From contig NC_134850.1 of the NCBI RefSeq assembly GCF_965363235.1, positions 35,623,102 through 35,687,101 of the forward strand: DNA of 64,000 nucleotides. The letters run 5' to 3'. A program made the position numbers and the translations under genes. Positions 1-43,500 of the stretch are shown in pieces. Source of the DNA: Mytilus galloprovincialis. Lineage: Eukaryota > Mollusca > Bivalvia > Mytilida > Mytilidae. Position 1 is the first letter of the stretch, and each line of letters begins with the position of its first letter. Below the pieces are notes generated by a model. That model was not told the DNA's origin and ran no database searches. It saw only the letters and a list, made by a program, of their open reading frames with translations.

Positions 1-917
1 TGGATAATGATAGTGCAAATGGGCATCCATGTACTGGGGACACATTCTTGTTTAAATTACATACAAGTTTAATTCAGTTTACCAAAAATTGTCACTACCT
101 GTACCTATCGCTTTTTGTCTGAACTAGACAGAGCCAAAAAACCAGACATGGTGGGGGAGCATTAACAATGTATAAGTTTGTGATTACATCTAGTTTATAG
201 TGAACCACTTTTGGTATGCAGTTGTATAAGTGTAGGCATTTCTTATTTCCATGAAAAATATTTTCCTCTGTCCCTATGTCATGGTTTATTGACTTTGAAA
301 CTTTTGCTTAGTTTACTTGTTTTATTTTGTGATTAGGTTCAAGGGGATTCATTAGTGGCATTAGTATTATTTTATCCAAATTTCAATAGAAGAAGTAACG
401 AAATTATTTTCAGTTTGTAAGTTTTTATTTGTATAACGTCATGTTTAGCAATGAAATCTATGCACCAAAATCATTTATGAAGTTTTGCAGAATTTTATTT
501 TATTTCAAGTTTATACATTTTTCCAACTGTTACAACTTATTATTTGTTTGTAATGCATTAGATTTGGAATAACAGTACGTACTATAGTTGAAGAGTTGCC
601 ACCTCAATTTTGATTTGATGGTTACAAATATCCGTTTTACTGTGTCCACTACCTGTCACCAGTTAAACTGCATTTACGAATCACTTCAACTAGAGTACTT
701 TCATTCCTATGTGTGAGGTTGTGCATCCAACTATGGAATGGTCCTTTATAGACCTAGTTACCATGGAAACTGTTCAAATATAATAAAAAATATTGGCAAG
801 GTAGCCTGGCATCATGAAGTGACATCTGCTATTGCTTGCCAATTCTAGTTATTTTTCTTTTTGTATGGTTAACAATCTAGTTTTAATATTGTGACTTGAC
901 ATAACTTTTTTCTGTAG

Positions 918-3900
918 GAACCAAAGAAGTACCAAAAGACTTAAAAAGTCTTCAACAGGAGGCTCAAACCCACATGAACAAGTTGTATTGTAAGTGTAAT
1001 GTCTTTTACTCTACTTCATATGAAATTTCAGCTGCAATGTGGAAAACCTTAATGCTGAGTTTATAAATCTCGTAATAATAATGTTAACTTGAAGAAAAAA
1101 TAAAATTAAGAATGGAAATGGGGAATGTGTCAAAGAGACAACAACCCGACCAAATAAAAAACAACAGCAGAAGGTCACCAACAGGTCTTCAATGTAGCGA
1201 GAAATTCCCGCACCCGGAGGCGTCCTTCAGCTGGCCCCTTGAAGAAAAAAGTCCATTTATAAGTTTAATACGGATTAACAGGTACAACGTTTTAACAAAA
1301 CTTCCTTCTGGATATTAGCTTTTGATCATAAACAAGTTTTTATTCAAGTTTGGTACAAATCCAGAATAGCTTAAAAGTTATTAAAATTTTTAAAACTTTG
1401 ACCACAAAATAGAAATAAAATAGAGAATGGAAATAGGGAATGTGCCAAAGAGACAAAAACCCGACCATATAAACAGACAACAGCAAAAGGTCACCAATAG
1501 ATCTTCAAATTCTGGAATGTATTGTTTCCTGGCCCAAAAAACTAAGTCAATTTATAATTATGTACAGAAATTTTTTTATTTTCTTTTTAACAAATTGACT
1601 TCTGAATACTATCTCATTGTCATAAACAAGCTTCTGTCCAAGTTTGGTAGAATTTGAGGAAAGTCATTAACATTTTAACCACAGAGTGAATTTAATGCTT
1701 CCCAGCAGAAAAACTAAGTCTATTTACAAGAATATGTCATTAAATTTTAAAAACTTTAAACACAGATTGAATTTAATGTTTCCAAGCAGAAAAACAGGGT
1801 CTATTTCGTGTAAAATACGGAAAGTTGAATTTTATTTTTACAAAATTTACTTCTGGATACTATTTAATGATCATAAATAAGCTTCTGTCCACGTTACAAA
1901 TTCAGGATAGCTTAAGAAAGCTATTAACATTTCAAAAAACTTTAACCACAGAGTGACTATTTGTGGACGCGGACGAAACAGAATGTAGGATTGCTTTGTC
2001 TAACTTTTTTGTTTAAACTTAAATGCTCAACAAAAATAATCAAATGTGTTTTAGTAAATACTGTTTTATATAATTTTTTTTTTAGCAAAAGCAGTGGGAA
2101 AAAAACAAGCTTTCCCGTACACAAAAGTTAAAAAAGGAATAATAGAAGTGAATGGTATCCCCCTTGATGTTCTCCCCCTTAAACCTATGTCAGATTATGG
2201 GGAGAAAAAAATGAAAATGTTTTTAAACATAAAGGAAATTTCGGTAGAAGTGTAAGTACAATTAGACATTTTAACTTTTATATCCATCCTGCAATTAATA
2301 GAGTGGAACAATGGTGAACAGTGTTTTTGGTCTGCACATCTTCTCAAGTTAGTTAAGTCTCCGTCCTGTACACTAGAAAACCAACATCATTTTACGCTTA
2401 TTGATATAAAATACCATTTGTCAACCATGCATCTTCAATGTCACAAATTATTTTTAAAATTATAATTAATTAAAGCTATATAAAAAGAGTCAACAAATAC
2501 ATTTTTATAGTTATTGCCCTTTGACAGACAGGTATATAAACTAATGCACATACTTAAGAAATTTATGCATGTTTTAGAAGTAAATTTTACCAGTTTTTCA
2601 ATTTTATTGTTTATTTCAGGCCCACATCTCCTGAATATGAGGTATTATCATTACCAGTTGACAATGGTAAATAAATATAACATACTTTATTTAAATGTCT
2701 TTTATAAATTTTGTCCTGATTATGCCTGAAATATTTGCCACAGCAAATGACAATCAATCCTATTTTAATTGCAAGCTTTAGTCAAAATGTAACTTATACA
2801 CAATGCTTATTACTACAAAACACAGATCAAGTTTGAATATTGGTGGTGTCACTGTTCTAGAGTTATGCCCCTTTATAAATGGAAAAATTGCAATTTTTTT
2901 CGTTTCCATTCCCTTACTTTAGTGTACCTCAACAAAATATTATGAAACCTTATAAACACAAAATACAAATCAAGTTTGAACTTAGGAAGCGTCACTTTAA
3001 CCATTCCACAATTATGCCTCTTTATAAATGGAAAAATTACAAAAATGTGAGTTTCCATTCTCTTATTTAAGTAACTTCCAAATTTTTTTCAGATGAAAAT
3101 GCAACCACCTGTTAATTGTTAATGTCAGAGATTTGATTGAAACAATAATGACAGGTTGTAATGGGCATTATTTGTGTGCATGCAGTTTTATTGGAATTAA
3201 AACTTCTAGTTTATGTCTATTATCAATTATCTTTCAGCTATAGAAACAGAATTGAATATAAAGGTGCAGAAGGCTGTTGAGGAGGATAACTTGATTGGTA
3301 GTAATTTTATTTTATTTAGTGATTAGTTCATAATAACATCTGTAAACATTAAAAATATTGAAGCAAATTTCCCAAAAAATCTGCCAACCGGTTTTACATA
3401 ATGGTGTTTTTATCAAATTTCATTCATTGCTATATGTGTACCAAAATATATATATATTTTCCACAAAAATATATTTATTTCTTCATAAAACTGTTGTTAC
3501 ATTATCAGAAGGTCAGTTTATTTTTAAGTTAACAAAAAATAGCAGGACTTTAAGTTATATATGTAATGAGTTTCTGGGCAAAAAATATATTCATTTAGTT
3601 ATCCAATGATGATACTGACCTATATACATTAACCTTATATGATCATATTTTAACCTTTTGATATCTTAACATACATCTATAAAGTGAAATTAAATTTTCT
3701 GATCAGCTCTGATCTAGTCTGATCTGTTTACATTGCTGAACAATTGACCTGTTCAGTCTGCTGCAAACATCTGACCATACATCAACTAAAAAAAACATTC
3801 CAAAAGTTCCTAAAATTAACCTTACAACAACAACAGCATACAAGAAAGACTAAAATACATTAAAAAATATAACTCTCAAAAAGTAACTCAATTAAATAAT

Positions 3901-6900
3901 TCATTATTCTGTGGTAAAACATAGATTAATAAGAGCAATTTATATATCCCTCAGCTAGATGACTTGCTAAACTGGTTCAAAATTGCATGTACAGTGAGAT
4001 TTTAGAATTCTTATATGAGTATATACCATTTGCCTAGATTGTAAAAGGCTACCATAAAAAAAAACTTGAAAAATCATAAGATTACTTTGACCAAGAGCTA
4101 TTCTGTTCCATATAGAAGTCATAAAATACATGTTTTATTAATTTCAATCAGAAAAAATGCAAAAATAAGAACATGGATTCAAGTCTTAACTGCATGCATG
4201 TTGTATGACCATAAAAGGCTAACATACTTGAGTATGCCAATTTAAGAGCTTAAATTTCCCATAAGCAGGACGGTTGACCAAAACAGAAGATTAAACATGA
4301 TTACTTACATCATGTTTGACTTATTTTCATTGGAATAGGTACAACTTCTAAAAATTGGATTTCTGGTGATTCTCTGTAATAGGAAGTACACTACTAATTA
4401 ATGGCCCCATTGCTTTCTATGTTAAATTCCTCAATTTCGAGTGGTCACAGCTAATTTATCTTAGGTTCAAATAAAGTGACAATCATTGCATGTCAAAGCA
4501 ACACCTTCTGGTGTCCTATACTGAAAAAATTAAAATACCTTAAATGGCATATAAGAAAGAACTGGTTCCCGGAACTTCGGATGTACCAAAACAGGTACTT
4601 CTGATCTGACAAAAAGGCAAAATGTACCCTCCTTTTTAAATTTCATGCCATTTGTGTATTATTCAAATTTATCAGTCAAAAAATTTTCTACAATGATCAC
4701 CAGTCATGCAGCTTTCATTTGATAACAAAATTAATAAAAAAATCTAAATATTTTGAAAGTTATGTCCATGCGTAGGAACTATTTTGTGTTAAATATGTAT
4801 TACTTTCTGGTATGTGCTTTCTTGCTGGGCCCGAATTAGTGGTGTTACACCTAGAGCACAAAAATTTGGGAACGAAATTTGGGACACCAAACATGTCTGC
4901 TCTATGGTCGGGTTGTTGTCTCTTTGGCACATTCCCCACTTAAAAAAAAAAAAAAAACTATAATAGAACTTTCGTCATATGTTGTTTTCATGGTTACAAG
5001 ACGAAGTTAAATGTGAATTTGGTTTTTATTTTCTAAATATCTTTTACCCAAGTCTAGTTAATAGAAAATGTATTATTTTCTGATGGATCATGACTACAAT
5101 ACACTGTCGCAAAAATTCTGAGATTTTAAACCAGGTTTTTAATCCTGCTTAGTCTGAAAATTCAATAATTGATTTAACATTTTTAAAATATATTTATCAC
5201 AATTAAAAAATGATGTGTTTAGTGAGCAAAAGATTGGATATAGGGAAATGTAGTGAACATCACAAATTCTTATAAGATGCTCCTCTTTCGCTTTGTAAAC
5301 ATGGCCATGTTCAATTCAAATAGATCATGGTAAACATGTGAATAACATATGTTGTATTTTGAACGGTGCAGGAGATCAAATCAGACATTTCTATTACTTA
5401 ATTGAAAAAAAGAAGTGAAAACTAACTATGGCACTGTAATTCAAATTCAAATTCATACACAATGATACAGATAATGATTATAATGTTATGCATATTTCCT
5501 TTAGCAATGCTTTATGGACAATACTTTGTTTTATAAAAACTTTTTTTTCAAACCAAGAAAATTTGGTAATGAAAAGTAAATATTGGAGATGCAGTGAAAA
5601 TTACCCTATTAATGATTTTATTTTTGTAGAACCTGGAAGTGAAGAACTACTCTACAATTTACTGGTGACTCCTGAGGTTGAAGAAAACCTGTATTCACTT
5701 GCATCACCAGCAGTCACACACATACTCCCATCACAACCAGTCACACATACACTACCATCACTACCAGTCACACAAACACAACCAAACAAAACAACAGTCA
5801 AAAGATCATTAAAAAAAACATCAGCCAAACAAACATTCACACTAAAAAAAACACCAGCCAAACAAACACTCACACTAAAAAAAACACCAGTTACTCATGC
5901 ATTCACATCACCACCAGTCACACATACAGTACCATCACCACCAGTCACACATACACTACCATCACCACCAGTCACACATACACTACCATCACCACCAGTC
6001 ACACTAGCACTCACTTCACCACCAGTCACACATACACTACCATCATCACCAGTCACACATACACTACCATCACCACCAGTCACACATACACTACCATCAC
6101 CACCAGTCACACTAGCACTCACTTCACCACCAGTCACACATACACTACCATCACCACCAGTCACACTAGCACTCACTTCACCACCAGTCACACATACAGT
6201 ACCATCACCACCAGTCACACATACACTCACTTCACCAGTCACACATACAGTACCATCACCACTAGTCACACATACACTACCATCACCACCAGTCACACAT
6301 ACACTCACATCACCACCAGTCACACTAGCACTCACATCACCACCAGTCACACATACACTCACATCACCACCAGTCACACATACACTCACATCACCACCAG
6401 TCACACATACAGTACCATCACCACCAGTCACACATACACTCACATCACCACCAGTCACACATACAGTACCATCACCACTAGTCACACATACACTACCATC
6501 AACACCAGTCACACATACAATCACATCACCACCAGTCACACATACACTACCATCACCACCAGTCACAACTACACTACCATCACCACCAGTCACACATACA
6601 CTCACATCACCACCAGTCACATCACCACCAGTCACACAAACACTCACATTATCACCAGTAACACTAGCACTCACTTCACCACCAGTCACACATACAGTAC
6701 CATCACCACCAGTCACATCACCACCAGTCACACTAGCATTCACATCACCACCAGTCACACATACCAGCAAAAGACCAAGGGGGACAGCTGCTAACAGGAC
6801 AAAAGCCACTAAAAAGAGAAAGAACAACAAAGGTAATAAAAGTGCAAGTTAGAATTTCAATTGTAACTAGAATGACACAGAAAAAGCTCTGCATTATCTG

Positions 6901-7447
6901 GATTTATCAGTCATCTGTTATTTTCTAATAATTCACTTGAACAGAAATTATTTATATGATATTATGTATTTGGTATATTTATAACATGTCAAATATCTTG
7001 ACAAATTGTGTTTTTGATGTTTATGGCATAGTTAAAATATAAATTTTTGATTAGAAATAATGCAATTGAATGTTAAAATTAACTTCTTCTAATTAACAAA
7101 CTATTAAAATTGATATTTTGACTAACTGACATTTCGTTTTTGTTTAAATTCATCATTAACATTGCTGTACATATAGACTTAGGTCAGTTTCACCAAAAAG
7201 ATGACTAAGATTCATATAGATCACTTTGCTATGAAATAAATGAACTTCTTTATTTTTCATATAACTACAATGTTTTATTTTTCTTTCAGAATGGGGAGTG
7301 AAAGGCATCATTGCCACAAGAACAGTAGAAAATTCACGACAATATTTGATTCATTGGGATGGATTTAGCCATGACCATGATTCATGGGAGCCAGAATGTA
7401 ATCTGACTCCAAGTCTAATTGGACAGTTTTTTGCCAATAAAATTTGA
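918..7447 (+). CDS. Inverted second copy of the chromodomain gene, exons 6-11 (partial)
   Basis: Exons at 918-989, 2086-2251, 2620-2666, 3238-3297, 5630-6832 and 7290-7447 have the same boundaries and phases as exons 6-11 of the minus-strand copy. No frame break is present. Exon 10 is 27 bp longer, with one extra 9-residue repeat. The last exon carries the chromodomain (WGVKGI..., QYLIHWDGF, DSWEPE) and stops at 7445-7447; an AATAAA follows near 7466. Exons 1-5 would lie left of the window, so I cannot tell whether this copy is complete. Confidence 0.82.
1080..1960. repeat. Mytilid-type dispersed repeats in diverged ~300-bp tandem (left arm)
   Basis: Copies of the GGGGAATGTGTCAAAGAGACAACAACCCGACC family at 1112-1245 and 1427-1510 are followed by three related blocks (GATCATAAAYAAGC-TTCTGTCCAAGTT and AACTTTRACCACAGAGTG). 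I recognise the first motif as very abundant in Mytilus sequence. The apparent 64-76-residue frames here are repeat translations. Confidence 0.7.
2760..3072. repeat. ~144-bp diverged tandem pair in an intron (left arm)
   Basis: Two units at ~2820 and ~2964 share ATCAAGTTTGAAY, GTCACT, TTATGCCYCTTTATAAATGG and a poly-A/T segment. This is a widespread molluscan repeat type by recollection. It lies in the intron between exons 8 and 9 of the left chromodomain gene copy; the mirror copy is at 38861-39173. Confidence 0.65.
4384..4530 (-). repeat. ~150-bp dispersed repeat, copy 1 (left arm)
   Basis: Read on the minus strand: GGACACCAGAAGGTGTTGC, ATGATTGTCACTTTATTTGAA, TGTGACCACTCGAAATTGAG and GGGGCCATTAATTAGT. 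The same family occurs mirrored at 37403-37549, and as an independent, diverged copy at 47235-47393. Confidence 0.8.
4816..4965 (-). repeat. Mytilid dispersed repeat fragment (left arm)
   Basis: Contains GGTCGGGTTGTTGTCTCTTTGG preceded by GTGTTACACCTAGAGCAC and followed by a poly-A tract at 4946-4962. The mirror copy is at about 36968-37117, with a longer homopolymer, and lies next to the right-arm-only MITE. Confidence 0.7.
5890..6768 (+). repeat. 27-bp coding minisatellite, left copy
   Basis: About 32 units of a 27-bp repeat inside exon 10 encode variants of a 9-residue motif, PVTHTLPSP, PVTHTVPSP, PVTHTLTSP or PVTLALTSP. The domain is rich in Thr, Pro and Ser and has many Ser-Pro/Thr-Pro sites. 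Upstream (5790-5890) are shorter Lys-rich repeats of the type KKT(S/P)AKQT. The unit length is a multiple of three, so copy number can change without breaking the frame. Confidence 0.92.
7290..7447 (+). CDS. Chromodomain-encoding terminal exon, left copy
   Basis: After the acceptor at 7281-7289 the frame reads W-G-V-K-G-I-I, a variable linker, Q-Y-L-I-H-W-D-G-F, then D-S-W-E-P-E-x-N-L. This is the diagnostic order of HP1/CDY-class chromodomains. Aromatic residues occupy all three expected methyl-lysine cage positions (W, W, F). The domain is the extreme C-terminus, ending 13 residues after the NL. Chromodomains at protein ends also occur in chromoviral integrases, but no integrase or reverse transcriptase sequence is adjacent. 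Confidence 0.9.
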
Positions 7448-7479
7448 ATTAAATTTTTTATATAATAAATACAATTTAA

Positions 7480-8490
7480 CAACTGACCACCAGCGATCCT
7501 GGATTTAAGCCAATATATAAGCTGCGTTGAATAGAAATCGACCTTATGCTAGTACACATTTATATGTACATATAAACAGCTGTGATTGGTTTTAGGAACA
7601 TTCAACATGTTCAAATATGAAATATCTAATATTTAATGTTCTTAGTACAACTTAAAGTTTCTAACAGTTATAGACTTTTGATATAGATTGTTTTTCCAGC
7701 CAAAATAGGATAACAGATATCCAGTTGCATAAAGTGTATTTCTATCGAAAACTGAGCATACAATGTTATAGAGTCTTCAAGAAAGAACATTATTTGCAAT
7801 AAAACAACTCTTCAACAGTTATCATGGATTTAAGTAATTGTACATTATTTGGCCTTCAACAATAAATAATCTGTACACTAAATCAAGTATCCACCGAAAT
7901 ACTTGATTTCAAGCAATAATATGTAATCTGGCCTTCAACGATGAAGCATTGTTACAATAAAACAACTTGCCACCAGAGACAGTGAATTTAAGAAAATGAA
8001 TGTTACATAGCTGGTCATAAACAATGAATAATAGTAACAATAAAACAACTCTCCAACAGATATTGTGCATTCAACAATGAATAATCTGTACAAAAATGCA
8101 ATTTTCCACAGAGTATATGGATTTAAGCAAATAAAAGTTATCTGGCCGTCAACAATGATAAATTGTTAACTTACAATAAGTCAGCTCTCCAAAATGTATT
8201 GTGGATTTAAGTAATTGTATGTTTTCTGACCTTGAATAATAAAGAAATAAAACAACTCGCCACCAGAGCCTTTAACAATGATGAATTATCACAATAAGAC
8301 AACTCTCCACCAGAGCCTTCAACAATGATGATTATTACAATAAGACAACTCTCCAAAATGTATCATGGATTTAAGCAACTGGATGTTATTTTGGTCTTCA
8401 ACAATGAATAATCAGTACAATTATACAATTCTCCACCAGAAAACCTTGATTTTAGCAATTAAATGTAATCTAGCCTTTAACAATGATTGT
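7480..8490. repeat. Degenerate ~100-bp tandem repeat downstream of the chromodomain gene (left arm)
   Basis: About nine diverged units built around ACAATAAAACAACTCTCCA, a GGATTTAAG core and CTTCAACAATGAATAAT. Spacing varies from about 60 to 120 bp. It begins just past the stop codon and putative polyadenylation site at ~7466, so it is probably intergenic or in a long 3' UTR. Confidence 0.7.
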
Positions 8491-8715
8491 TTTTTGGCGA
8501 GCCTGCAAATTTTATATCAGAAACCTTGACATAGGGATAGTGATCAGGTGGTGGAGGCGCTAGCTTTAGTTTTCACTTAACCTTGACCTTATTTCACATA
8601 TCAGTGATAAAGGTTAAGTTTTGGTGCATGGTCAAGTCCATATCTCAGATACTATAAGCAATAGGTCATCTATATTCAGTGTATTTAAGGACTGTAAGGT
8701 GTAGATATTCAACTG

Positions 8716-9607
8716 GAATGCATGGTTGGGTAAGGACCTGTTTAATTACGAATGTAACAATAATTATTGAGGCTACGGTTACATTGCGTTTATATTGTTA
8801 CATGGAAAACAGCGATGTACGATGGGACTAGTAATATGTACTGAATAATAAAAGTTGAAGACATTCATTTTATATTTACCATACATACAATTTCTTCATT
8901 GTAATTTTTATTTACAATGACAGTTTCTACAAATCCAGTATTACTAAGTGTTTTTTAAAAGCATGTATAAGTCCTACACATTTTTGATGAACGAAAATAC
9001 GTCCTCCATGGATACATGTACATACAGAAGTTCCCAGTATTTTAATTAAGTTACAGTTAGCAAACTTTGCTTTTGATGTATCACCTTTTTTAGAACTGCG
9101 TTTGTATAGTTGTATGAAATTTGTGTCTTAATATTGTTGTTTCATTTAAAACGCATCCCAACTGCCAAGTTTTAATTTGTTCACCCTAAACAAAATTGGT
9201 AATAGAAATATCTTCATCCATTGTTCAAAGTATAATGACAGTAATAAGAGTAGGTGTGCAGTGCAGTTAAATACTTTAAAGTGAAACCATTAACCCATAT
9301 TTTTCGCCTTTGACATTACTAATGTGAAGTAGTATCTAAAGTTAAGAAAATCAAAACCATTAATACGTATAACTATAATTAAACACCATTTGTTGAATAA
9401 TAATATTTATTATTTATCATTATTTAATTTACAAGTATTATTTAGTACATATGAAAGAATTAAGCAATAAAACTATTATAGAAGATTTGAGTTTAATAAT
9501 CTAGCGTACATTGCTGTTTTTCATGTAACAATAACGTTATGTAACCGTAGCCTCAATAATTATTGTTACATTCGTAATTAATCGGTTCCTTACCCAACTT
9601 TGCATTC
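8716..9607. mobile_element. Element with ~105-bp terminal inverted repeats (left arm)
   Basis: 8716-8822 and 9505-9607 are inverted copies of each other, starting GAATGCA and containing GGGTAAGG, ACGAATGTAACAATAATTATTG and GGCTACGGTTACAT. The ~680-bp interior shows no transposase. I see no clear target-site duplication, so the boundaries are approximate. A further GTTACAT/ATGTAAC-rich stretch continues to about 9675. Confidence 0.65.
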
Positions 9608-10014
9608 TGACAATTAGTCCCCAATGTAACAATATTATTTTTATTATTGTTACATTTCCATGTAACCGTAGCCAGTGCCAACTTATTAATGAATAAATGC
9701 ATGATATATATGTGGCTCGATGTCAATAACCATTTAGTTCTCGCCTTGCCTTCCCGGTCATTCAATTTGATGAACTGCACTAACTTTTAATTACATGTAC
9801 ATACGTCAAAAATACTTATAGAGCATGTTAACATTGTCAGAAAAAAAATTAAAAAATTGTTTGCAGTCTCGATGAAATATGATTGATGACAAAGGCTTTA
9901 TGCACGTTCTGTACCTGTCAAATTTAAATTATGAAAACATTACTTAGTATTCTACAGTAAATATCTAGCTAGTAATGGAAAACCGATCTTTCTGTATACA
10001 AAAATAATGAGTCT

Positions 10015-11180
10015 GCGGTTTTTAGATAGTCTGTAAGTATTGTCTGTAATTCTTAGATACAGTTTGTAAGTATTGTCTGAGGTTCTTATATACAATTGTA
10101 AGTTTTGTCCAAGGTTCTTAGAGTTAGTCTGTAATTCTTAAATACAGTCTGTAAGCATTGTCTGTAGTTCTTAGATAGTCTGTAAGTATTGTCTATAGTT
10201 CTTAGATAGTCTGTAAGTATTGTCTGTAGTTCTTAGATACGGTCTGTAAGTATTGTCTGTAGTTCTTAGATACGGTCTGTAAGTATTGTCTGTAGTTCTT
10301 AGATAGTCTGTAAGTATTGTCTATAGTTCTTAGATACAGTCTGTAAGTATTGTCTGTAGTTCTTAGATACAGTCTGTAAGTATTGTCTGTAGTTCTTAGA
10401 TAGTCTGTAAGTATTGTCTGTAGTTCTTAGATACGGTCTGTAAGTATTGTCTGTAGTTTTTAGATACGGTCTGTAAGTATTGTCTGTAGTTCTTAGATAG
10501 TCTGTAAGTATTGTCTATAGTTCTTAGATACAGTCTGTAAGTATTGTCTATAGTTCTTAGATACAGTCTGTAAGTATTGTCTGTAGTTCTTAGATACAGT
10601 CTGTAAGTATTGTCTGTAGTTCTTAGATAGTCTGTAAGTATTGTCTATAGTTCTTAGATACAGTCTGTAAGTATTGTCTATAGTTCTTAGATACGGTCTG
10701 TAAGTATTGTCTATAGTTCTTAGATACGGTCTGTAAGTATTGTCTATAGTTCTTAGATACGGTCTGTAAGTATTGTCTATAGTTCTTAGATACGGTCTGT
10801 AAGTATTGTCTATAGTTCTTAGATACGGTCTGTAAGTATTGTCTATAGTTCTTAGATACGGTCTGTAAGTATTGTCTATAGTTCTTAGATACGGTCTGTA
10901 AGTATTGTCTATAGTTCTTAGATACAGTCTGTAAGTATTGTCTGAGGTTCTTATATACAATTGTAATTTTTGTCCGAGGTTCTTAGAGTTAGTCTGTAAG
11001 TAGTGTCTGCAGTTCTTAGATACAGTCTGTAAGTATACTAGTCGGAGGTATTCATATACAGTTTGTAAGTATTGTCTGAGGTTCCTATATACAGATGTAA
11101 GTTTTGTCTCAGATAATTAGATTTAGTCTGTAAGTATAGTCTGCAGTTCTTAGATAGTCTGTAAGTATTGTCTGTAATTC
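10015..11180. repeat. 33/31-bp tandem array (left arm)
   Basis: More than 30 units of TCTGTAAGTATTGTCTRTAG-TTCTTAGATACRG, mostly 33 bp, with a 31-bp variant lacking AC near the end. A homogeneous block of 33-bp units (about 10660-10930) is open in one frame on the minus strand, because 33 is divisible by three. Units near both ends are more diverged, as expected for array growth from the centre. Confidence 0.92.
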
Positions 11181-12260
11181 ATCTTTAATATTATCTCGTC
11201 TTGAACATGAATGAAATATTTGCCACTGGACGTAAATAAATTGCTGGACAGACGTCTAGCGGTTACATGACCGAATTATTGTATTCATCATTAATATTTT
11301 ATCCGACGTCCTGAACATGAATGAAATATTTGTCGCTGGACGTACAGCCAACATTAATCAATCAGTCTAGCGGTAATATGGTCTAACTATTGTATTTATC
11401 TTTAATATGATCTCTTCCTGAACATGAATGAAATATTTGCTACTTGACGTAAATAGTTTGATGGACAGACGTCTAGCAGTGGTTTCATGACCTAACTATT
11501 TTATTTATCTGTAATATGATATCTTTCCGCTGACCATGAATAAAATATTTGAATTCGGGACGTGAATAGATTGCTGGACTGACGTCTAGCGGTTACATGA
11601 CCGAACTATTGTATTTATCATTAATATGATATCCGACGTCCTGAACATGAATGAAATATTTGTCACTGGACATACAGCCAACTTCAAATAATCAGTCTAG
11701 CGGTAATATGGTCTAACTATTGTATTCATCTTTAATATGATTTCTTCCTGAACATGAATGAAATATTTGCTACTTGACGAAAATAGTTTGATGGACAGTC
11801 GTCTAGCAGTGGTTTCATGACCTAACTATTTTATTTATCTGTAATATGATATCTTTCCGCTGACCATGTATAAAATATTTGAACTCGGGACGTAAATAGT
11901 TTGCTGGACTGACGTCTAGCGGTTACATGACTTAACTTTTGTTTTCATCTTTGATATGGTCTCTTCCTGAACATGAATGAAATAGTTGTCACTGGACGTA
12001 AAACCAACACCATTCAATCAGTCTAGCATTAATATGACCTTACTATTGTATTCATCTTTAATATGATCTCTTCCTGAACATGAATGAAATATTTGCCACT
12101 CAGTGACGTAAATAGTTTGCTGGACAGGCGTCTAGCGGTTACATGACCGAACTATTGTTTTCATCTTTAATATGGTCTCTTCCTGAACATAATTGAAATA
12201 GTTGTCACTGGAAGTACAGCAAACATCAAGCAATAAATCTAGCGGTTACAAGACCGGTAG
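11170..12260. repeat. ~110-bp satellite with 330-bp higher-order period (left arm)
   Basis: GTCTAGC landmarks at about 11253, 11364, 11471, 11583, 11694, 11801, 11913, 12021, 12129 and 12237 give periods of 111, 107, 112, 111, 107, 112, then 108. Units three apart (for example 11364/11694 and 11471/11801) share the same variants. The unit contains GTCCAGYGRCAAATATTTCATTCATG when read on the minus strand. Confidence 0.88.
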
Positions 12261-12352
12261 CAAATCTGGTAAAACGACACACTAAAAGACAACTTCAATG
12301 GAAATGCCAAATGAATTTCCATTTTTCTACAGAGTTATTCGATTCGTATAAG

Positions 12353-12373
12353 CTATATATATATATATATATA
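12353..12373. repeat. TA microsatellite (left arm)
   Basis: About ten TA dinucleotides in a run, close to the end of the ~110-bp satellite. The mirror copy is at about 29421-29441. Confidence 0.85.
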
Positions 12374-12639
12374 AAGTTCATACACCATATCACCAATTAG
12401 GCATATACTATTCCATGGATATAGACGCTATATATCGTCCATACACCAACAGACCAATGAGACATACAACAATGGGATACATAATTATTTCAGAGCCACC
12501 GCGTCCGTTGTTTTTATTGAACCACTTGGAAGATTGTAAGTTACATTCTGGTAGACCTTAATGATTTTTACCGATTGAAACCGTCAACACATCGGATTTA
12601 TTTTTACTTAATATGTGTTATACTTTGTCCACGTCCCTT

Positions 12640-25574: not shown

Positions 25575-25679
25575 ATTGATAACAGTGCTTTTTTGTGTTG
25601 ACGACACAATTATTAGATCGATAAATAAAGGAAAAGCTTAAACCATGTCAGTAAATAGCACTTGGTTTTAAAACTCAAT

Positions 25680-29154: not shown

Positions 29155-29533
29155 AAGGGACGTGGACAAAGTATAACACATATTAAGTAAAAATAAATCC
29201 GATGTGTTGACGGTTTCAATCGGTAAAAATCATTAAGGTCTACCAGAATGTAACTTACAATCTTCCAAGTGGTTCAATAAAAACAACGGACGCGGTGGCT
29301 CTGAAATAATTATGTATCCCATTGTTGTATGTCTCATTGGTCTGTTGGTGTATGGACGATATATAGCGTCTATATCCATGGAATAGTATATGCCTAATTG
29401 GTGATATGGTGTATGAACTTTATATATATATATATATATAGCTTATACGAATCGAATAACTCTGTAGAAAAATGGAAATTCATTTGGCATTTCCATTGAA
29501 GTTGTCTTTTAGTGTGTCGTTTTACCAGATTTG

Positions 29534-31779: not shown

Positions 31780-32186
31780 AGACTCATTATTTTTGTATAC
31801 AGAAAGATCGGTTTTCCATTACTAGCTAGATATTTACTGTAGAATACTAAGTAATGTTTTCATAATTTAAATTTGACAGGTACAGAACGTGCATAAAGCC
31901 TTTGTCATCAATCATATTTCATCGAGACTGCAAACAATTTTTTAATTTTTTTTCTGACAATGTTAACATGCTCTATAAGTATTTTTGACGTATGTACATG
32001 TAATTAAAAGTTAGTGCAGTTCATCAAATTGAATGACCAGGAAGGCAAGGCGAGAACTAAATGGTTATTGACATCGAGCCACATATATATCATGCATTTA
32101 TTCATTAATAAGTTGGCACTGGCTACGGTTACATGGAAATGTAACAATAATAAAAATAATATTGTTACATTGGGGACTAATTGTCA

Positions 32187-33078
32187 GAATGCAAAGTTGG
32201 GTAAGGAACCGATTAATTACGAATGTAACAATAATTATTGAGGCTACGGTTACATAACGTTATTGTTACATGAAAAACAGCAATGTACGCTAGATTATTA
32301 AACTCAAATCTTCTATAATAGTTTTATTGCTTAATTCTTTCATATGTACTAAATAATACTTGTAAATTAAATAATGATAAATAATAAATATTATTATTCA
32401 ACAAATGGTGTTTAATTATAGTTATACGTATTAATGGTTTTGATTTTCTTAACTTTAGATACTACTTCACATTAGTAATGTCAAAGGCGAAAAATATGGG
32501 TTAATGGTTTCACTTTAAAGTATTTAACTGCACTGCACACCTACTCTTATTACTGTCATTATACTTTGAACAATGGATGAAGATATTTCTATTACCAATT
32601 TTGTTTAGGGTGAACAAATTAAAACTTGGCAGTTGGGATGCGTTTTAAATGAAACAACAATATTAAGACACAAATTTCATACAACTATACAAACGCAGTT
32701 CTAAAAAAGGTGATACATCAAAAGCAAAGTTTGCTAACTGTAACTTAATTAAAATACTGGGAACTTCTGTATGTACATGTATCCATGGAGGACGTATTTT
32801 CGTTCATCAAAAATGTGTAGGACTTATACATGCTTTTAAAAAACACTTAGTAATACTGGATTTGTAGAAACTGTCATTGTAAATAAAAATTACAATGAAG
32901 AAATTGTATGTATGGTAAATATAAAATGAATGTCTTCAACTTTTATTATTCAGTACATATTACTAGTCCCATCGTACATCGCTGTTTTCCATGTAACAAT
33001 ATAAACGCAATGTAACCGTAGCCTCAATAATTATTGTTACATTCGTAATTAAACAGGTCCTTACCCAACCATGCATTC
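32187..33078. mobile_element. Element with ~105-bp terminal inverted repeats (right arm)
   Basis: Mirror of 8716-9607 with the same terminal repeats and interior. Its presence in both arms places the insertion before the inverted duplication. Confidence 0.65.
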
Positions 33079-33303
33079 CAGTTGAATATCTACACCTTAC
33101 AGTCCTTAAATACACTGAATATAGATGACCTATTGCTTATAGTATCTGAGATATGGACTTGACCATGCACCAAAACTTAACCTTTATCACTGATCTGTGA
33201 AATAAGGTCAAGGTTAAGTGAAAACTAAAGCTAGCGCCTCCACCACCTGATCACTATCCCTATGTCAAGGTTTCTGATATAAAATTTGCAGGCTCGCCAA
33301 AAA

Positions 33304-34314
33304 ACAATCATTGTTAAAGGCTAGATTACATTTAATTGCTAAAATCAAGGTTTTCTGGTGGAGAATTGTATAATTGTACTGATTATTCATTGTTGAAGAC
33401 CAAAATAACATCCAGTTGCTTAAATCCATGATACATTTTGGAGAGTTGTCTTATTGTAATAATCATCATTGTTGAAGGCTCTGGTGGAGAGTTGTCTTAT
33501 TGTGATAATTCATCATTGTTAAAGGCTCTGGTGGCGAGTTGTTTTATTTCTTTATTATTCAAGGTCAGAAAACATACAATTACTTAAATCCACAATACAT
33601 TTTGGAGAGCTGACTTATTGTAAGTTAACAATTTATCATTGTTGACGGCCAGATAACTTTTATTTGCTTAAATCCATATACTCTGTGGATAATTGCATTT
33701 TTGTACAGATTATTCATTGTTGAATGCACAATATCTGTTGGAGAGTTGTTTTATTGTTACTATTATTCATTGTTTATGACCAGCTATGTAACATTCATTT
33801 TCTTAAATTCACTGTCTCTGGTGGCAAGTTGTTTTATTGTAACAATGCTTCATCGTTGAAGGCCAGATTACATATTATTGCTTGAAATCAAGTATTTCGG
33901 TGGATACTTGATTTAGTGTACAGATTATTTATTGTTGAAGGCCAAATAATGTACAATTACTTAAATCCATGATAACTGTTGAAGAGTTGTTTTATTGCAA
34001 ATAATGTTCTTTCTTGAAGACTCTATAACATTGTATGCTCAGTTTTCGATAGAAATACACTTTATGCAACTGGATATCTGTTATCCTATTTTGGCTGGAA
34101 AAACAATCTATATCAAAAGTCTATAACTGTTAGAAACTTTAAGTTGTACTAAGAACATTAAATATTAGATATTTCATATTTGAACATGTTGAATGTTCCT
34201 AAAACCAATCACAGCTGTTTATATGTACATATAAATGTGTACTAGCATAAGGTCAATTTCTATTCAACGCAGCTTATATATTGGCTTAAATCCAGGATCG
34301 CTGGTGGTCAGTTG
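33304..34314. repeat. Degenerate ~100-bp tandem repeat (right arm)
   Basis: Mirror of 7480-8490, lying downstream of the minus-strand chromodomain gene stop at 34347. Confidence 0.7.
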
Positions 34315-34346
34315 TTTAATTGTATTTATTATATAAAAAATTTAAT

Positions 34347-34504
34347 TCAAATTTTATTGGCAAAAAACTGTCCAATTAGACTTGGAGTCAGATTACATTC
34401 TGGCTCCCATGAATCATGGTCATGGCTAAATCCATCCCAATGAATCAAATATTGTCGTGAATTTTCTACTGTTCTTGTGGCAATGATGCCTTTCACTCCC
34501 CATT
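34347..34504 (-). CDS. Chromodomain-encoding terminal exon, right copy
   Basis: Mirror of 7290-7447, the same 158-nt length and the same key chromodomain residues, with the stop at 34347-34349. The cage residues and the WEPE motif are intact, so if either gene copy is expressed the reader domain should be functional. It is the last exon of the complete 11-exon gene. Confidence 0.9.
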
Positions 34505-37500
34505 CTGAAAGAAAAATAAAACATTGTAGTTATATGAAAAATAAAGAAGTTCATTTATTTCATAGCAAAGTGATCTATATGAATCTTAGTCATCTTTTTG
34601 GTGAAACTGACCTAAGTCTATATGTACAGCAATGTTAATGATGAATTTAAACAAAAACGAAATGTCAGTTAGTCAAAATATCAATTTTAATAGTTTGTTA
34701 ATTAGAAGAAGTTAATTTTAACATTCAATTGCATTATTTCTAATCAAAAATTTATATTTTAACTATGCCATAAACATCAAAAACACAATTTGTCAAGATA
34801 TTTGACATGTTATAAATATACCAAATACATAATATCATATAAATAATTTCTGTTCAAGTGAATTATTAGAAAATAACAGATGACTGATAAATCCAGATAA
34901 TGCAGAGCTTTTTCTGTGTCATTCTAGTTACAATTGAAATTCTAACTTGCACTTTTATTACCTTTGTTGTTCTTTCTCTTTTTAGTGGCTTTTGTCCTGT
35001 TAGCAGCTGTCCCCCTTGGTCTTTTGCTGGTATGTGTGACTGGTGGTGATGTGAATGCTAGTGTGACTGGTGGTGATGTGACTGGTGGTGATGGTACTGT
35101 ATGTGTGACTGGTGGTGAAGTGAGTGCTAGTGTTACTGGTGATAATGTGAGTGTTTGTGTGACTGGTGGTGATGTGACTGGTGGTGATGTGAGTGTATGT
35201 GTGACTGGTGGTGATGGTAGTGTAGTTGTGACTGGTGGTGATGGTAGTGTATGTGTGACTGGTGGTGATGTGATTGTATGTGTGACTGGTGTTGATGGTA
35301 GTGTATGTGTGACTAGTGGTGATGGTACTGTATGTGTGACTGGTGGTGATGTGAGTGTATGTGTGACTGGTGGTGATGGTACTGTATGTGTGACTGGTGG
35401 TGATGTGAGTGTATGTGTGACTGGTGGTGATGTGAGTGTATGTGTGACTGGTGGTGATGTGAGTGCTAGTGTGACTGGTGGTGATGTGAGTGTATGTGTG
35501 ACTGGTGGTGATGGTAGTGTATGTGTGACTAGTGGTGATGGTACTGTATGTGTGACTGGTGAAGTGAGTGTATGTGTGACTGGTGGTGATGGTACTGTAT
35601 GTGTGACTGGTGGTGAAGTGAGTGCTAGTGTGACTGGTGGTGATGGTAGTGTATGTGTGACTGGTGGTGAAGTGAGTGCTAGTGTGACTGGTGGTGATGG
35701 TAGTGTATGTGTGACTGGTGGTGATGGTAGTGTATGTGTGACTGGTGATGATGGTAGTGTATGTGTGACTGGTGGTGAAGTGAGTGCTAGTGTGACTGGT
35801 GGTGATGGTAGTGTATGTGTGACTGGTGGTGATGGTACTGTATGTGTGACTGGTGGTGATGTGAATGCATGAGTAACTGGTGTTTTTTTTAGTGTGAGTG
35901 TTTGTTTGGCTGGTGTTTTTTTTAGTGTGAATGTTTGTTTGGCTGATGTTTTTTTTAATGATCTTTTGACTGTTGTTTTGTTTGGTTGTGTTTGTGTGAC
36001 TGGTAGTGATGGTAGTGTATGTGTGACTGGTTGTGATGGGAGTATGTGTGTGACTGCTGGTGATGCAAGTGAATACAGGTTTTCTTCAACCTCAGGAGTC
36101 ACCAGTAAATTGTAGAGTAGTTCTTCACTTCCAGGTTCTACAAAAATAAAATCATTAATAGGGTAATTTTCACTGCATCTCCAATATTTACTTTTCATTA
36201 CCAAATTTTCTTGGTTTGAAAAAAAAAGTTTTTATAAAACAAAGTATTGTCCATAAAGCATTGCTAAAGGAAATATGCATAACATTATAATCATTATCTG
36301 TATCATTGTGTATGAATTTGAATTTGAATTACAGTGCCATAGTTAGTTTTCACTTCTTTTTTTCAATTAAGTAACAGAAATGTCTGATTTGATCTCCTGC
36401 ACCGTTCAAAATACAACATATGTTATTCACATGTTTACCATGATCTATTTGAATTGAACATGGCCATGTTTACAAAGCGAAAGAGGAGCATCTTATAAGA
36501 ATTTGTGATGTTCACTACATTTCCCTATATCCAATCTTTTGCTCACTAAACACATCATTTTTTAATTGTGATAAATATATTTTAAAAATGTTAAATCAAT
36601 TATTGAATTTTCAGGCTAAGCAGGATTAAAAACCTGGTTTAAAATCTCAGAATTTTTGCGACAGTGTATTGTAGTCATGATCCATCAGAAAATAATACAT
36701 TTTCTATTAACTAGACTTGGGTAAAAGATATTTAGAAAATAAAAACCAAATTCACATTTAACTTGCAGTGGCGGATCCAGAGGGGGGGTTCCGGGGGTCC
36801 GCACCCCCCTTTATTTTGGCCGATCAATGCATTTGAATCGGGACATATGTTTGCACCCCCCCTGCACCCCCCCCCTTTGCCCTGGGCTAGCACCCCCCCT
36901 TTCGAAAATTCCTGCATCCGCCACTGACTTGTAACCATGAAAACAACATATGACGAAAGTTCTATTATAGTTTTTTTTTTTTTTTTTAAGTGGGGAATGT
37001 GCCAAAGAGACAACAACCCGACCATAGAGCAGACATGTTTGGTGTCCCAAATTTCGTTCCCAAATTTTTGTGCTCTAGGTGTAACACCACTAATTCGGGC
37101 CCAGCAAGAAAGCACATACCAGAAAGTAATACATATTTAACACAAAATAGTTCCTACGCATGGACATAACTTTCAAAATATTTAGATTTTTTTATTAATT
37201 TTGTTATCAAATGAAAGCTGCATGACTGGTGATCATTGTAGAAAATTTTTTGACTGATAAATTTGAATAATACACAAATGGCATGAAATTTAAAAAGGAG
37301 GGTACATTTTGCCTTTTTGTCAGATCAGAAGTACCTGTTTTGGTACATCCGAAGTTCCGGGAACCAGTTCTTTCTTATATGCCATTTAAGGTATTTTAAT
37401 TTTTTCAGTATAGGACACCAGAAGGTGTTGCTTTGACATGCAATGATTGTCACTTTATTTGAACCTAAGATAAATTAGCTGTGACCACTCGAAATTGAGG

Positions 37501-40500
37501 AATTTAACATAGAAAGCAATGGGGCCATTAATTAGTAGTGTACTTCCTATTACAGAGAATCACCAGAAATCCAATTTTTAGAAGTTGTACCTATTCCAAT
37601 GAAAATAAGTCAAACATGATGTAAGTAATCATGTTTAATCTTCTGTTTTGGTCAACCGTCCTGCTTATGGGAAATTTAAGCTCTTAAATTGGCATACTCA
37701 AGTATGTTAGCCTTTTATGGTCATACAACATGCATGCAGTTAAGACTTGAATCCATGTTCTTATTTTTGCATTTTTTCTGATTGAAATTAATAAAACATG
37801 TATTTTATGACTTCTATATGGAACAGAATAGCTCTTGGTCAAAGTAATCTTATGATTTTTCAAGTTTTTTTTTTTTTATGGTAGCCTTTTACAATCTAGG
37901 CAAATGGTATATACTCATATAAGAATTCTAAAATCTCACTGTACATGCAATTTTGAACCAGTTTAGCAAGTCATCTAGCTGAGGGATATATAAATTGCTC
38001 TTATTAATCTATGTTTTACCACAGAATAATGAATTATTTAATTGAGTTACTTTTTGAGAGTTATATTTTTTAATGTATTTTAGTCTTTCTTGTATGCTGT
38101 TGTTGTTGTAAGGTTAATTTTAGGAACTTTTGGAATGTTTTTTTTAGTTGATGTATGGTCAGATGTTTGCAGCAGACTGAACAGGTCAATTGTTCAGCAA
38201 TGTAAACAGATCAGACTAGATCAGAGCTGATCAGAAAATTTAATTTCACTTTATAGATGTATGTTAAGATATCAAAAGGTTAAAATATGATCATATAAGG
38301 TTAATGTATATAGGTCAGTATCATCATTGGATAACTAAATGAATATATTTTTTGCCCAGAAACTCATTACATATATAACTTAAAGTCCTGCTATTTTTTG
38401 TTAACTTAAAAATAAACTGACCTTCTGATAATGTAACAACAGTTTTATGAAGAAATAAATATATTTTTGTGGAAAATATATATATATTTTGGTACACATA
38501 TAGCAATGAATGAAATTTGATAAAAACACCATTATGTAAAACCGGTTGGCAGATTTTTTGGGAAATTTGCTTCAATATTTTTAATGTTTACAGATGTTAT
38601 TATGAACTAATCACTAAATAAAATAAAATTACTACCAATCAAGTTATCCTCCTCAACAGCCTTCTGCACCTTTATATTCAATTCTGTTTCTATAGCTGAA
38701 AGATAATTGATAATAGACATAAACTAGAAGTTTTAATTCCAATAAAACTGCATGCACACAAATAATGCCCATTACAACCTGTCATTATTGTTTCAATCAA
38801 ATCTCTGACATTAACAATTAACAGGTGGTTGCATTTTCATCTGAAAAAAATTTGGAAGTTACTTAAATAAGAGAATGGAAACTCACATTTTTGTAATTTT
38901 TCCATTTATAAAGAGGCATAATTGTGGAATGGTTAAAGTGACGCTTCCTAAGTTCAAACTTGATTTGTATTTTGTGTTTATAAGGTTTCATAATATTTTG
39001 TTGAGGTACACTAAAGTAAGGGAATGGAAACGAAAAAAATTGCAATTTTTCCATTTATAAAGGGGCATAACTCTAGAACAGTGACACCACCAATATTCAA
39101 ACTTGATCTGTGTTTTGTAGTAATAAGCATTGTGTATAAGTTACATTTTGACTAAAGCTTGCAATTAAAATAGGATTGATTGTCATTTGCTGTGGCAAAT
39201 ATTTCAGGCATAATCAGGACAAAATTTATAAAAGACATTTAAATAAAGTATGTTATATTTATTTACCATTGTCAACTGGTAATGATAATACCTCATATTC
39301 AGGAGATGTGGGCCTGAAATAAACAATAAAATTGAAAAACTGGTAAAATTTACTTCTAAAACATGCATAAATTTCTTAAGTATGTGCATTAGTTTATATA
39401 CCTGTCTGTCAAAGGGCAATAACTATAAAAATGTATTTGTTGACTCTTTTTATATAGCTTTAATTAATTATAATTTTAAAAATAATTTGTGACATTGAAG
39501 ATGCATGGTTGACAAATGGTATTTTATATCAATAAGCGTAAAATGATGTTGGTTTTCTAGTGTACAGGACGGAGACTTACCTAACTTGAGAAGATGTGCA
39601 GACCAAAAACACTGTTCACCATTGTTCCACTCTATTAATTGCAGGATGGATATAAAAGTTAAAATGTCTAATTGTACTTACACTTCTACCGAAATTTCCT
39701 TTATGTTTAAAAACATTTTCATTTTTTTCTCCCCATAATCTGACATAGGTTTAAGGGGGAGAACATCAAGGGGGATACCATTCACTTCTATTATTCCTTT
39801 TTTAACTTTTGTGTACGGGAAAGCTTGTTTTTTTCCCACTGCTTTTGCTAAAAAAAAAATTATATAAAACAGTATTTACTAAAACACATTTGATTATTTT
39901 TGTTGAGCATTTAAGTTTAAACAAAAAAGTTAGACAAAGCAATCCTACATTCTGTTTCGTCCGCGTCCACAAATAGTCACTCTGTGGTTAAAGTTTTTTG
40001 AAATGTTAATAGCTTTCTTAAACTATCCTGAATTTGTAACGTGGACAGAAGCTTATTTATGATCATTAAATAGTATCCAGAAGTAAATTTTGTAAAAATA
40101 AAATTCAACTTTCCGTATTTTACACGAAATAGACCCTGTTTTTCTGCTTGGAAACATTAAATTCAATCTGTGTTTAAAGTTTTTAAAATTTAATGACATA
40201 TTCTTGTAAATAGACTTAGTTTTTCTGCTGGGAAGCATTAAATTCACTCTGTGGTTAAAATTTAATGACTTTCCTCAAATTCTACCAAACTTGGACAGAA
40301 GCTTGTTTATGACAATGAGATAGTATTCAGAAGTCAATTTGTTAAAAAGAAAATAAAAAAATTTCTGTACATAATTATAAATTGACTTAGTTTTTCTGCC
40401 AGGAAACAATACATTCCAGAATTTGAAGATCTATTGGTGACCTTTTGCTGTTGTCTGTTTATATGGTCGGGTTTTTGTCTCTTTGGCACATTCCCTATTT

Positions 40501-43500
40501 CCATTCTCTATTTTATTTCTATTTTGTGGTCAAAGTTTTAAAAATTTTAATAACTTTTAAGCTATTCTGGATTTGTACCAAACTTGAATAAAAACTTGTT
40601 TATGATCAAAAGCTAATATCCAGAAGGAAGTTTTGTTAAAACGTTGTACCTGTTAATCCGTATTAAACTTATAAATGGACTTTTTTCTTCAAGGGGCCAG
40701 CTGAAGGACGCCTCCGGGTGCGGGAATTTCTCGCTACATTGAAGACCTGTTGGTGACCTTCTGCTGTTGTTTTTATTTGGTCGGGTTGTTGTCTCTTTGA
40801 CACATTCCCCATTTTCATTCTTAATTTTATTTTTTCTTCAAGTTAACATTATTATTACGAGATTTATAAACTCAGCATTAAGGTTTTCCACATTGCAGCT
40901 GAAATTTCATATGAAGTAGAGTAAAAGACATTACACTTACAATACAACTTGTTCATGTGGGTTTGAGCCTCCTGTTGAAGACTTTTTAAGTCTTTTGGTA
41001 CTTCTTTGGTTCCTACAGAAAAAAGTTATGTCAAGTCACAATATTAAAACTAGATTGTTAACCATACAAAAAGAAAAATAACTAGAATTGGCAAGCAATA
41101 GCAGATGTCACTTCATAATGCCAGGCTACCTTGCCAATATTTTTTATTATATTTGAACAGTTTCCATGGTAACTAGGTCTATAAAGGACCATTCCATAGT
41201 TGGATGCACAACCTCACACATAGGAATGAAAGTACTCTAGTTGAAGTGATTCGTAAATGCAGTTTAACTGGTGACAGGTAGTGGACACAGTAAAACGGAT
41301 ATTTGTAACCATCAAATCAAAATTGAGGTGGCAACTCTTCAACTATAGTACGTACTGTTATTCCAAATCTAATGCATTACAAACAAATAATAAGTTGTAA
41401 CAGTTGGAAAAATGTATAAACTTGAAATAAAATAAAATTCTGCAAAACTTCATAAATGATTTTGGTGCATAGATTTCATTGCTAAACATGACGTTATACA
41501 AATAAAAACTTACAAACTGAAAATAATTTCGTTACTTCTTCTATTGAAATTTGGATAAAATAATACTAATGCCACTAATGAATCCCCTTGAACCTAATCA
41601 CAAAATAAAACAAGTAAACTAAGCAAAAGTTTCAAAGTCAATAAACCATGACATAGGGACAGAGGAAAATATTTTTCATGGAAATAAGAAATGCCTACAC
41701 TTATACAACTGCATACCAAAAGTGGTTCACTATAAACTAGATGTAATCACAAACTTATACATTGTTAATGCTCCCCCACCATGTCTGGTTTTTTGGCTCT
41801 GTCTAGTTCAGACAAAAAGCGATAGGTACAGGTAGTGACAATTTTTGGTAAACTGAATTAAACTTGTATGTAATTTAAACAAGAATGTGTCCCCAGTACA
41901 TGGATGCCCATTTGCACTATCATTATCCATGTTCAGTGGACTGTGAAAATGGAACAAAAACTCTAATTTGGCATTATAATTAGAAAGATCATCACAGGAA
42001 ACATGTATAAAAAGTTTCAAGTTGATTGGAATTCAATTTAATCCAAAAGCTAAAAACCTCAACCAAAAACTTAAACCTGAAGTGAAACAGACAGAAAAAC
42101 AAACAAAAGATAACAAACAAACAAATGCACAGAGCAGAAAACAAAATGCCCATAAATAGGGCATACAAATGTTAAAATTCTGACCTAGTGAATGAAAAGC
42201 AAACAAATTCTGCAGGATGTCCTCTGATTTAAGGAAGGCAGCAGATTTTCCATCTCCTAAAAGGATCTGGGATCCAGTGTTGGTGTCAATGCCTACCAGA
42301 GCTACATCTATACCATGCTTTTCAAGTTCAACAATCTGAAGGGAAAAAGAAAAATATTTTTTTATGGTCTGACTGAGGATTAAAATAATATCAAACAAAC
42401 CTAGATAAAAAAAAATTGTGCACACTCACTATTTATTGATATTTATTGATATTTATTTATCAAGAGCCTAGTTTGCGCACCTGTAATTTTTTGCTTAAAT
42501 CTTTTATCAATAACTATTTTTGACTTTCAATATACATTTATTTGTGGCTTAAAAAATGCCTTTTCAGGAGGATTGCGGGTATAAGATTTTCAGAAAAAAA
42601 TAACATTTGTTTTTCATTACAAATTCTATTAATTACCTTTAGTAGTTGTTACTTTATCATACGGTACAAAAATAATTCCAATAGTTGGCGGCTTAACTGT
42701 TGGCCCCATGTGACACTAAAAATGTAGGTATCATTGAAAAAGCTCCAAATTATCTCCCTTTGGTGCAAAAATGCCATTATTTGGCATTAAAATTAAACGG
42801 ACGAAGATGATGGTGGATGCCAAGTTATGGAAAATGCTCACTTTAGCATGCATCAAAACACATACACATATTGCCGGTAACTGAAAAAATGTTGCCATCA
42901 TATTACAAGTTGGGTCTTCAGGAAAGTTTATTTTATAAGCAAATCAGAATAAAATTGTTTAAGGAGGCTCGCGGGTATAAGATTTTCAGAAAAAATTCAA
43001 ACATTCATTTTTCTTTACAAATTTTATTAATTACCTTTAGTAGTTGTTACTTTATTTTATGGTACAAGAATTTTTTTTAAAAAATCAATACATGTTGGCC
43101 CCAGGTGACTTTTAAAATTTAGATATCATTGAAAAAGCTCCAAATTATCTCCCTTTGGTGCAAAAGTGACATTTTTTTGGCTAAAAATGAAATATCTTTT
43201 TTAACTCATCGGTGACCTATATTTTTTATTGTTGTTTTCCAAAAGGCTGTACATAAACTAAAAAATTGTAAAATTTAACAAATTTCTGTAATTTAGTTCT
43301 TTTTTTATTTCGATATTACCAATATTTCTCATATTAGTTCAACAGAAAAAAAGGACATTAACAAATATGTAATCTTTTTTCGAAGGCAGATTGTGAGCAT
43401 AAATGCACGGTGACCCCATATTTTTATTTAATTTTTCCATTAGGTATAAGATAAAGTTAATTTATAGAAAAATATAGAGAAATCCTATATTAAATAAAAC

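Follow-up and report, generated by a model that had tools for sequence, protein, structure and literature searches.

A 65-kb palindrome in Mytilus galloprovincialis is probably a rearranged derivative of a giant KDZ transposon

The window analyzed here, a stretch of 64,000 nucleotides of the Mytilus galloprovincialis genome (C13:35623102-35687101; the assembly totals 1.385 Gb over 331 contigs), lies across a palindrome of about 65 kb. Based on comparison with related copies elsewhere in the assembly, we propose that this palindrome is probably a derivative of a giant KDZ transposon, formed from two near-identical copies that lay tail to tail and were fused by a deletion. Coordinates without a contig name are in window numbering, with negative values to the left of the window.

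Results

Extent of the palindrome and comparison of its arms

Self-comparison of the window gave two inverted arms (1-20462 and 21322-41929) separated by a unique spacer of 859 bp, as the original prediction had described. The predicted arm length of 20.5 kb was right in exceeding 20 kb but is only a lower bound, because the window edge truncates the left arm. The genome sequence to the left of the window carries the palindrome on at 99.85-99.9% identity to -12791, for which the partner position is 52065, and the full palindrome is C13:35610310-35675166, a total of 64,857 bp made up of a left arm of 33,254 bp, the spacer and a right arm of 30,744 bp (Table 1).

The arms match at 99.5% over 15 kb, which far exceeds chance. 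Alignment of the in-window parts shows 38 substitutions, of which 22 are transitions, and 14 indels; among the latter are a 160-bp element that the left arm lacks and a 27-bp unit that the right arm lacks. The scattered substitutions and few indels that had been predicted are confirmed, as is the mirror order of genes, satellites and transposons. Over the 27,594 paired bases from -9999 to 20462 there are 45 substitutions (0.16%), two of which are alignment noise at an excision footprint, a divergence in keeping with the recent origin suggested previously. The first differences appear about 0.7 kb from the spacer. Equal array lengths between the arms, also predicted, were found for the 33-bp array (1,054 bp) and for an array to which TRF assigns a 330-bp period (980 bp), but not for the 27-bp array, which differs by one unit. 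A tandem array of 161 bp (5.8 copies) is present at 43565-44502 in the outer right arm and is also seen left of the window. No tRNA genes were found, and no Rfam family reached its gathering score.

Table 1. Features of the palindrome and its surroundings in window coordinates
Feature	Position	Strand	Remarks
Left arm, in-window part	1..20462	+	extends to -12791 (C13:35610310), ending at left-type TIR
Second gene, left arm, in-window part	911..7444	+	exons 911-997, 2085-2252, 3234-3311; repeat-rich 5626-6801
Excision footprint of hAT-like MITE, left arm	4997..5007	+	C1a and C1b have the uninserted site
Chromodomain exon, left arm	7265-7444	+	placed by mirror position
KDZ transposase 3' exons, left arm	16262..19401	-	P0001 residues 592-887; frame broken at T run near 16583
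Unique spacer, 859 bp	20463..21321	+	single transposase exon inside (residues 569-592)
KDZ transposase exon	20518..20589	-	P0001 residues 569-592; single copy, in spacer
Inner junction, 3-bp microhomology CAT	21322..21324	+	CATTGCC elsewhere, CATAAAT here
Right arm (second copy, inverted)	21322..52065	-	ends at left-type TIR
KDZ transposase 3' exons, right arm	22383..25571	+	P0001 residues 592-900; further degenerate copies 25680-26498
Second gene, right arm	34350..48924	-	exons 48924-48781, 47584-47453, 44833-44672, 42335-42183
Second gene, right arm, further exons	41019-40933, 39848-39681, 38699-38622	-	
Second gene, right arm, 3' part	repeat-rich 36141-34993; chromodomain 34529-34350	-	
hAT-like MITE, 160 bp, right arm only	36765..36924	-	excised from left arm
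Further MITE (about 180 bp), found in the right arm alone	50213..50389	+	absent from left arm, C1a, C1b and C10
124-bp TIR, right end	51942..52065	-	identical to palindrome's left end at C13:35610310
Right flank, array of 1.7-kb units	52066..64000	+	first unit cut exactly at palindrome's end; extends past window

The inner junction and the ordinary order of the element

A genome search with the spacer (best 40 of 666 candidates) returned four other near-complete copies, at C11:7.33 Mb, C1:49.59 Mb (C1a), C1:50.30 Mb (C1b) and C10:21.98 Mb, with the first 20 bp missing from the two on C1. All four read arm, spacer and then a further sequence, termed X, which is the same in each and starts with CATTGCC. 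We therefore take arm-spacer-X to be the ordinary order and C13 to be rearranged, the inverted arm, which starts with CATAAAT, having taken the place of X. A microhomology of at least the 3 bp seen at this junction is expected in 7.3% of random joins within this sequence (chance 0.073). The 50-kb contexts of the four other spacer copies contain no palindrome of the arm; inverted matches above 500 bp occur only in that of C10, where they reach at most 2.0 kb and are unrelated to the C13 structure. With a 3-kb query from X (best 40 of 1,378 candidates), X was complete at C11 and at two places on C1, fragmented at C10 and diverged at C5 and at another C10 locus (C10b), and at C13 nothing was found beyond 150-bp repeats within the arms.

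Terminal inverted repeats and flanks

Beyond X, where the similarity between C1a and C1b ceases, the outer end of the arm is found again in inverted orientation; it is a terminal inverted repeat (TIR), CACCCGAT...ATCGGGTG. C1a and C1b are 39.7 kb each, with the layout TIR(left)-arm-spacer-X-TIR(right) and a 7-bp target duplication at each. They are arranged tail to tail at a distance of 695 kb and show 4 mismatches over 34.7 kb. This near-identical pair (C1:49558337-49598031 and 50293257-50332971) could reflect recent transposition, or else be a candidate for duplication during assembly. Searching the whole genome with the 124-bp end, with 27 of 27 candidates scored, yielded 27 matches, which form 11 opposed pairs spanning 28-79 kb and 5 singles. 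When both ends of the ten pairs besides C13 were read, an exact 7-bp target duplication was present in seven (TTTATAT at C1a, TTGAGAA at C1b, and others on C5, C7, C3 and twice on C11) and absent from C10, C10b and C12, the right end of C10b also being degraded. These duplication-less pairs (C10:21948863-22003716, C10:21420046-21498630 and C12:37964212-38004826) are perhaps recombinant or rearranged elements.

At C13, both ends are left-type TIRs that match at 100%, and the arms stop there to the base. The layout is TIR(left)-arm-spacer-inverted arm-TIR(left), with X, the transposase core and the right TIR all missing; none of the TIR matches in the assembly (27 of 27 candidates scored) is a right-hand end of this locus. 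Its two flanks are unlike each other and lack a target duplication, the sequences at the two ends being CAAGAAC versus ATATAAA. The left flank has no counterpart of the array on the right: 7.1 kb of it finds no match in the right flank at 52066-64000 and 87399-93399, and the absence of the array rests on this flank comparison, since the array search (best 6 of 999 candidates) missed the window's own copies. The 1.7-kb array, read at 52066-64000, would extend to about 87728 (C13:35710829), with further copies at 35701116-35710829, and has relatives at C6:70.73 Mb, C1:69.91 Mb and C13:53.01 Mb (best 6 of 999 candidates).

The KDZ transposase gene

In ordinary copies X carries the transposase core. 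Pieces of the C1a X match the KDZ profile PF18758 in order (4-45, 52-101, 101-133 and 169-216), the second and fourth passing the curated cut-off singly, and C1a also contains a CxC2 cysteine cluster (E=3.2e-8, above cut-off); NCBIfam gave no match for the four pieces. A Mytilus edulis protein of 900 residues, P0001, matches KDZ with E=1.9e-47 and aligns from residue 1 to 900 to C1a exon by exon, the transposase gene of the C1 copies extending over X, the spacer and the inner arm. By protein-to-locus mapping, C13 retains residues 569-592 once in the spacer and residues 592-900 twice, inverted, in the arms (residues 632-900 are listed there in the genome-wide P0001 search). The KDZ core (P0001 residues 316-530) is absent from the locus and the C13 palindrome is therefore a non-autonomous derivative with no transposase of its own. 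The one-base indel at the T run at 16583, which breaks the 3' frame in the left arm only, is either a true mutation or a homopolymer error.

Among the best 51 of 245 candidates, transposase exons lie within at least six of the ten non-palindromic TIR pairs (C1a, C1b, C10, C10b, C5 and C11:40.93-40.99 Mb), the remaining four pairs showing none, and also outside any TIR pair, in the C11:7.33 Mb copy, at C4:46.7 Mb and at C11:32.8, 34.5 and 34.8 Mb. The target duplication of the family is 7 bp, the Kyakuja-type length, and not the 8 bp of the Zisupton type. With its KDZ domain, CxC cluster, TIRs and 7-bp duplications, the family is a giant DNA transposon of the KDZ (Kyakuja-Dileera-Zisupton) superfamily. 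An annotated mussel protein, P0010 (LOC143047159), carries a Sec1 domain (PF00995) ahead of the N-terminal part of the transposase and represents either a host-transposon fusion or a gene-model error.

The second gene

The outer arm carries a second gene that runs in the opposite direction to the transposase gene. Its exon at 34350-34529 encodes a chromodomain (profile score 3.3e-11), and its Mytilus relatives have a chromodomain and GTF2I-like repeats (one of four above cut-off). The 27-bp satellite is part of an open reading frame with matches to these relatives, and as a minisatellite (34945-36231; mirror 5440-6852) it is an open coding repeat of nine residues, VTHTLPSPP-like, upstream of the chromodomain exon. 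In M. coruscus, proteins matching the transposase and the second gene are both on a contig of 134,128 bases, presumably one and the same. When 21 window or locus ORFs were compared with Pfam, a Polinton or viral identity was unsupported, although with this coverage further genes may have escaped notice; the repeat-rich ORF at 34945-36231 gave a match to PF15449 'Retinal' above its cut-off, which was judged low complexity, while CodY, GapR, Jagunal, HMG_box_2, Siva and Holin_BhlA fell below their curated cut-offs and were set aside.

History of the arms

In alignable blocks the left arm diverges by 1.34% from C1a, 1.88% from C11 and 4.44% from C10. Judged by divergence, the C13 arms are sisters, being 0.16% apart versus 1.34% from C1a. 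A tree of a 1.1-kb segment also pairs the two C13 arms (0.972); the same tree sets C10 beside them (0.917) despite C10 being the most distant by overall divergence, and the segment is short, such that we trust the tree for the pairing of the arms only. When polarized by the other copies, the 45 substitutions comprise 20 derived in the right arm, 16 derived in the left, 4 mixed and 5 unassigned. Since the arms split, the left arm has gained a LINE fragment of 2.6-2.8 kb with a 694-codon frame, which C1a lacks as judged by spacing, and the right arm has gained the MITE at 50213-50389. The footprint left by the hAT-like MITE has the flipped terminal bases that are typical of hAT excision.

Discussion

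We put forward a mechanism in which a recent copy of the element would have inserted in the opposite orientation on the same chromosome, giving the tail-to-tail arrangement now seen in C1a and C1b, after which a deletion would have removed the facing halves of the two copies plus everything between them, the remaining ends being joined at the 3-bp microhomology. Such a fusion would explain the two left ends, the unrelated flanks, the missing duplication, the missing X and right TIR, and the microhomology. The right end falls inside a 1.7-kb array unit and the left flank has no array, as two separate insertions would predict. The presumed starting arrangement is present today in C1a and C1b. 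Against deletion fusion, two independent breakpoints would have to fall within 862 bp of the same position in the element (probability 0.043), the spacer and microhomology fit a fold-back junction too, and the missing target duplication is unspecific, being shared by three of the ten ordinary pairs. It should be noted that a single assembly was compared and that the precursors of the palindrome were not seen there as separate insertions.

The coincidence of two breakpoints is not required if the palindrome arose by fold-back (copy-back) on one element, which we consider possible but doubtful. Here a break in X would be followed by resection, intrastrand annealing at CAT and self-primed copying to the end of the element, on a free or transposase-cut molecule, and the resulting palindrome with two left ends would then be integrated whole or be captured at a break. 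The original prediction had named a foldback inverted duplication, and the inner junction does fit, its 859-bp spacer and 3-bp microhomology being within the range of human fold-back junctions (PMC3907307), of which the 21 sequenced in that study have spacers of 766-70,466 bp and 13 have 2-8 bp of microhomology. The outer ends do not fit. Fold-back within the chromosome is expected to mirror the flank, yet no mirror is present there, and a palindrome inserted as one unit is expected to have a 7-bp duplication and like flanks on both sides, neither of which is seen; the array on the right side only also disfavors insertion as one unit. While human fold-back inverted duplications likewise have a short, single-copy spacer and an inner junction marked by microhomology, their arms run into the chromosome, whereas the arms at C13 end at transposon TIRs (PMC3907307).

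Those same ends bear on two further readings that the original prediction had raised. That the palindrome resembles those of sex chromosomes, with gene-bearing arms kept alike by arm-to-arm gene conversion, is in our view very unlikely, even though the arms are highly identical and two of their arrays are of equal length. The differences between them are mildly clustered (P 0.02-0.04 by three measures) and one stretch of 4 kb contains no substitutions, so that some arm-to-arm gene conversion may have occurred. However, the sequence is a transposon within TIR bounds, with both arms ending exactly at its terminus, and recent copying suffices for the identity: sister copies should differ little, C1a and C1b are even more alike at a distance of 695 kb, and three arm-specific transposon events have stayed unconverted. 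An assembly artefact, in which two haplotypes or two copies of the element were joined in opposite orientation, has if anything still less to recommend it. Near-identical repeats are difficult to assemble, but the flanks are free of the mirror, which ends at the TIR, the assembly holds no left-over right TIR (27 of 27 scored) or X (best 40 of 1,378) of the C13 locus, and the join would depend on 3 bp; a fold-back read of a single molecule would not give differences starting about 0.7 kb from the spacer. The mirror does not pass into the flanks, 7.1 kb of left flank finding no match in the right flank at 52066-64000 and 87399-93399, and this contradicts a simple haplotype join. We infer that the palindrome is a genuine genomic structure and not a haplotype join, and deletion fusion of two tail-to-tail copies remains the origin that we propose.

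The parent element is like the KDZ transposons Zisupton, Kyakuja and Cryptococcus KDZ1, as described in PMC12730594 and PMC12810828, in its KDZ core, CxC cluster, CA..TG termini and TIRs, and its 7-bp duplications have the length reported there for Kyakuja. In contrast, the mussel elements are 28-79 kb versus about 11 kb for KDZ1, their duplications are 7 bp versus 8 bp in Zisupton and KDZ1, and they have TIRs, whereas the reported 7-bp Kyakuja elements are without them (PMC12730594, PMC12810828). Relative to KDZ transposons as known from those descriptions, a chromodomain gene has been added. The giant transposons Teratorn and Polinton/Maverick (PMC6431247) are also large and carry several genes, and Teratorn and Polinton have TIRs too, but the mussel element differs from them in its KDZ transposase. 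The words Zisupton, KDZ and Kyakuja are absent from the main text of that review of giant transposons and from the main text of a survey of bivalve transposons (PMC10294476), KDZ is reported in an oyster genome paper only as a domain enrichment (PMC10546077), and there was no report of giant KDZ elements in molluscs among the matches listed from the open-licence literature.

In its anatomy the C13 palindrome resembles, at a larger scale, maize Mu killer, the inverted-duplicated derivative of MuDR, which likewise has two same-end TIRs, a partial inverted duplication of the transposase gene and loss of the middle of the element (PMC3440606). The two differ in that Mu killer belongs to Mutator and is about 4 kb while C13 is KDZ and about 65 kb, and in that Mu killer keeps the 5' part of the transposase gene, next to the TIR, while C13 keeps the 3' part (PMC3440606). 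A transposase supplied in trans might mobilize the palindrome, and the layout of C13 would let inward read-through transcripts form a long hairpin RNA. By analogy, and as an unlikely extension, the palindromic KDZ derivative could be an animal counterpart of Mu killer, transcribed inward from its left ends across the spacer and silencing the giant KDZ family in trans through a very long hairpin or antisense RNA; in a second form of the same idea, the palindrome with two left ends would itself be a mobile unit.

The essence of our proposal is that an apparent giant palindrome is recast as a transposon story, that of a mussel family with TIRs spanning 28-79 kb, several members of which have a KDZ transposase. 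It appears that two near-identical copies in opposite orientation can collapse to give a palindrome of 65 kb, and such a collapse would be a route to gene-bearing palindromes without selection for gene conversion. Whether a mirror extends past the ends of an element also provides a check for haplotype misjoins that needs the sequence only. Finally, C13 offers a concrete locus at which to study, in an animal, the possible silencing of parent elements by inverted transposon derivatives.
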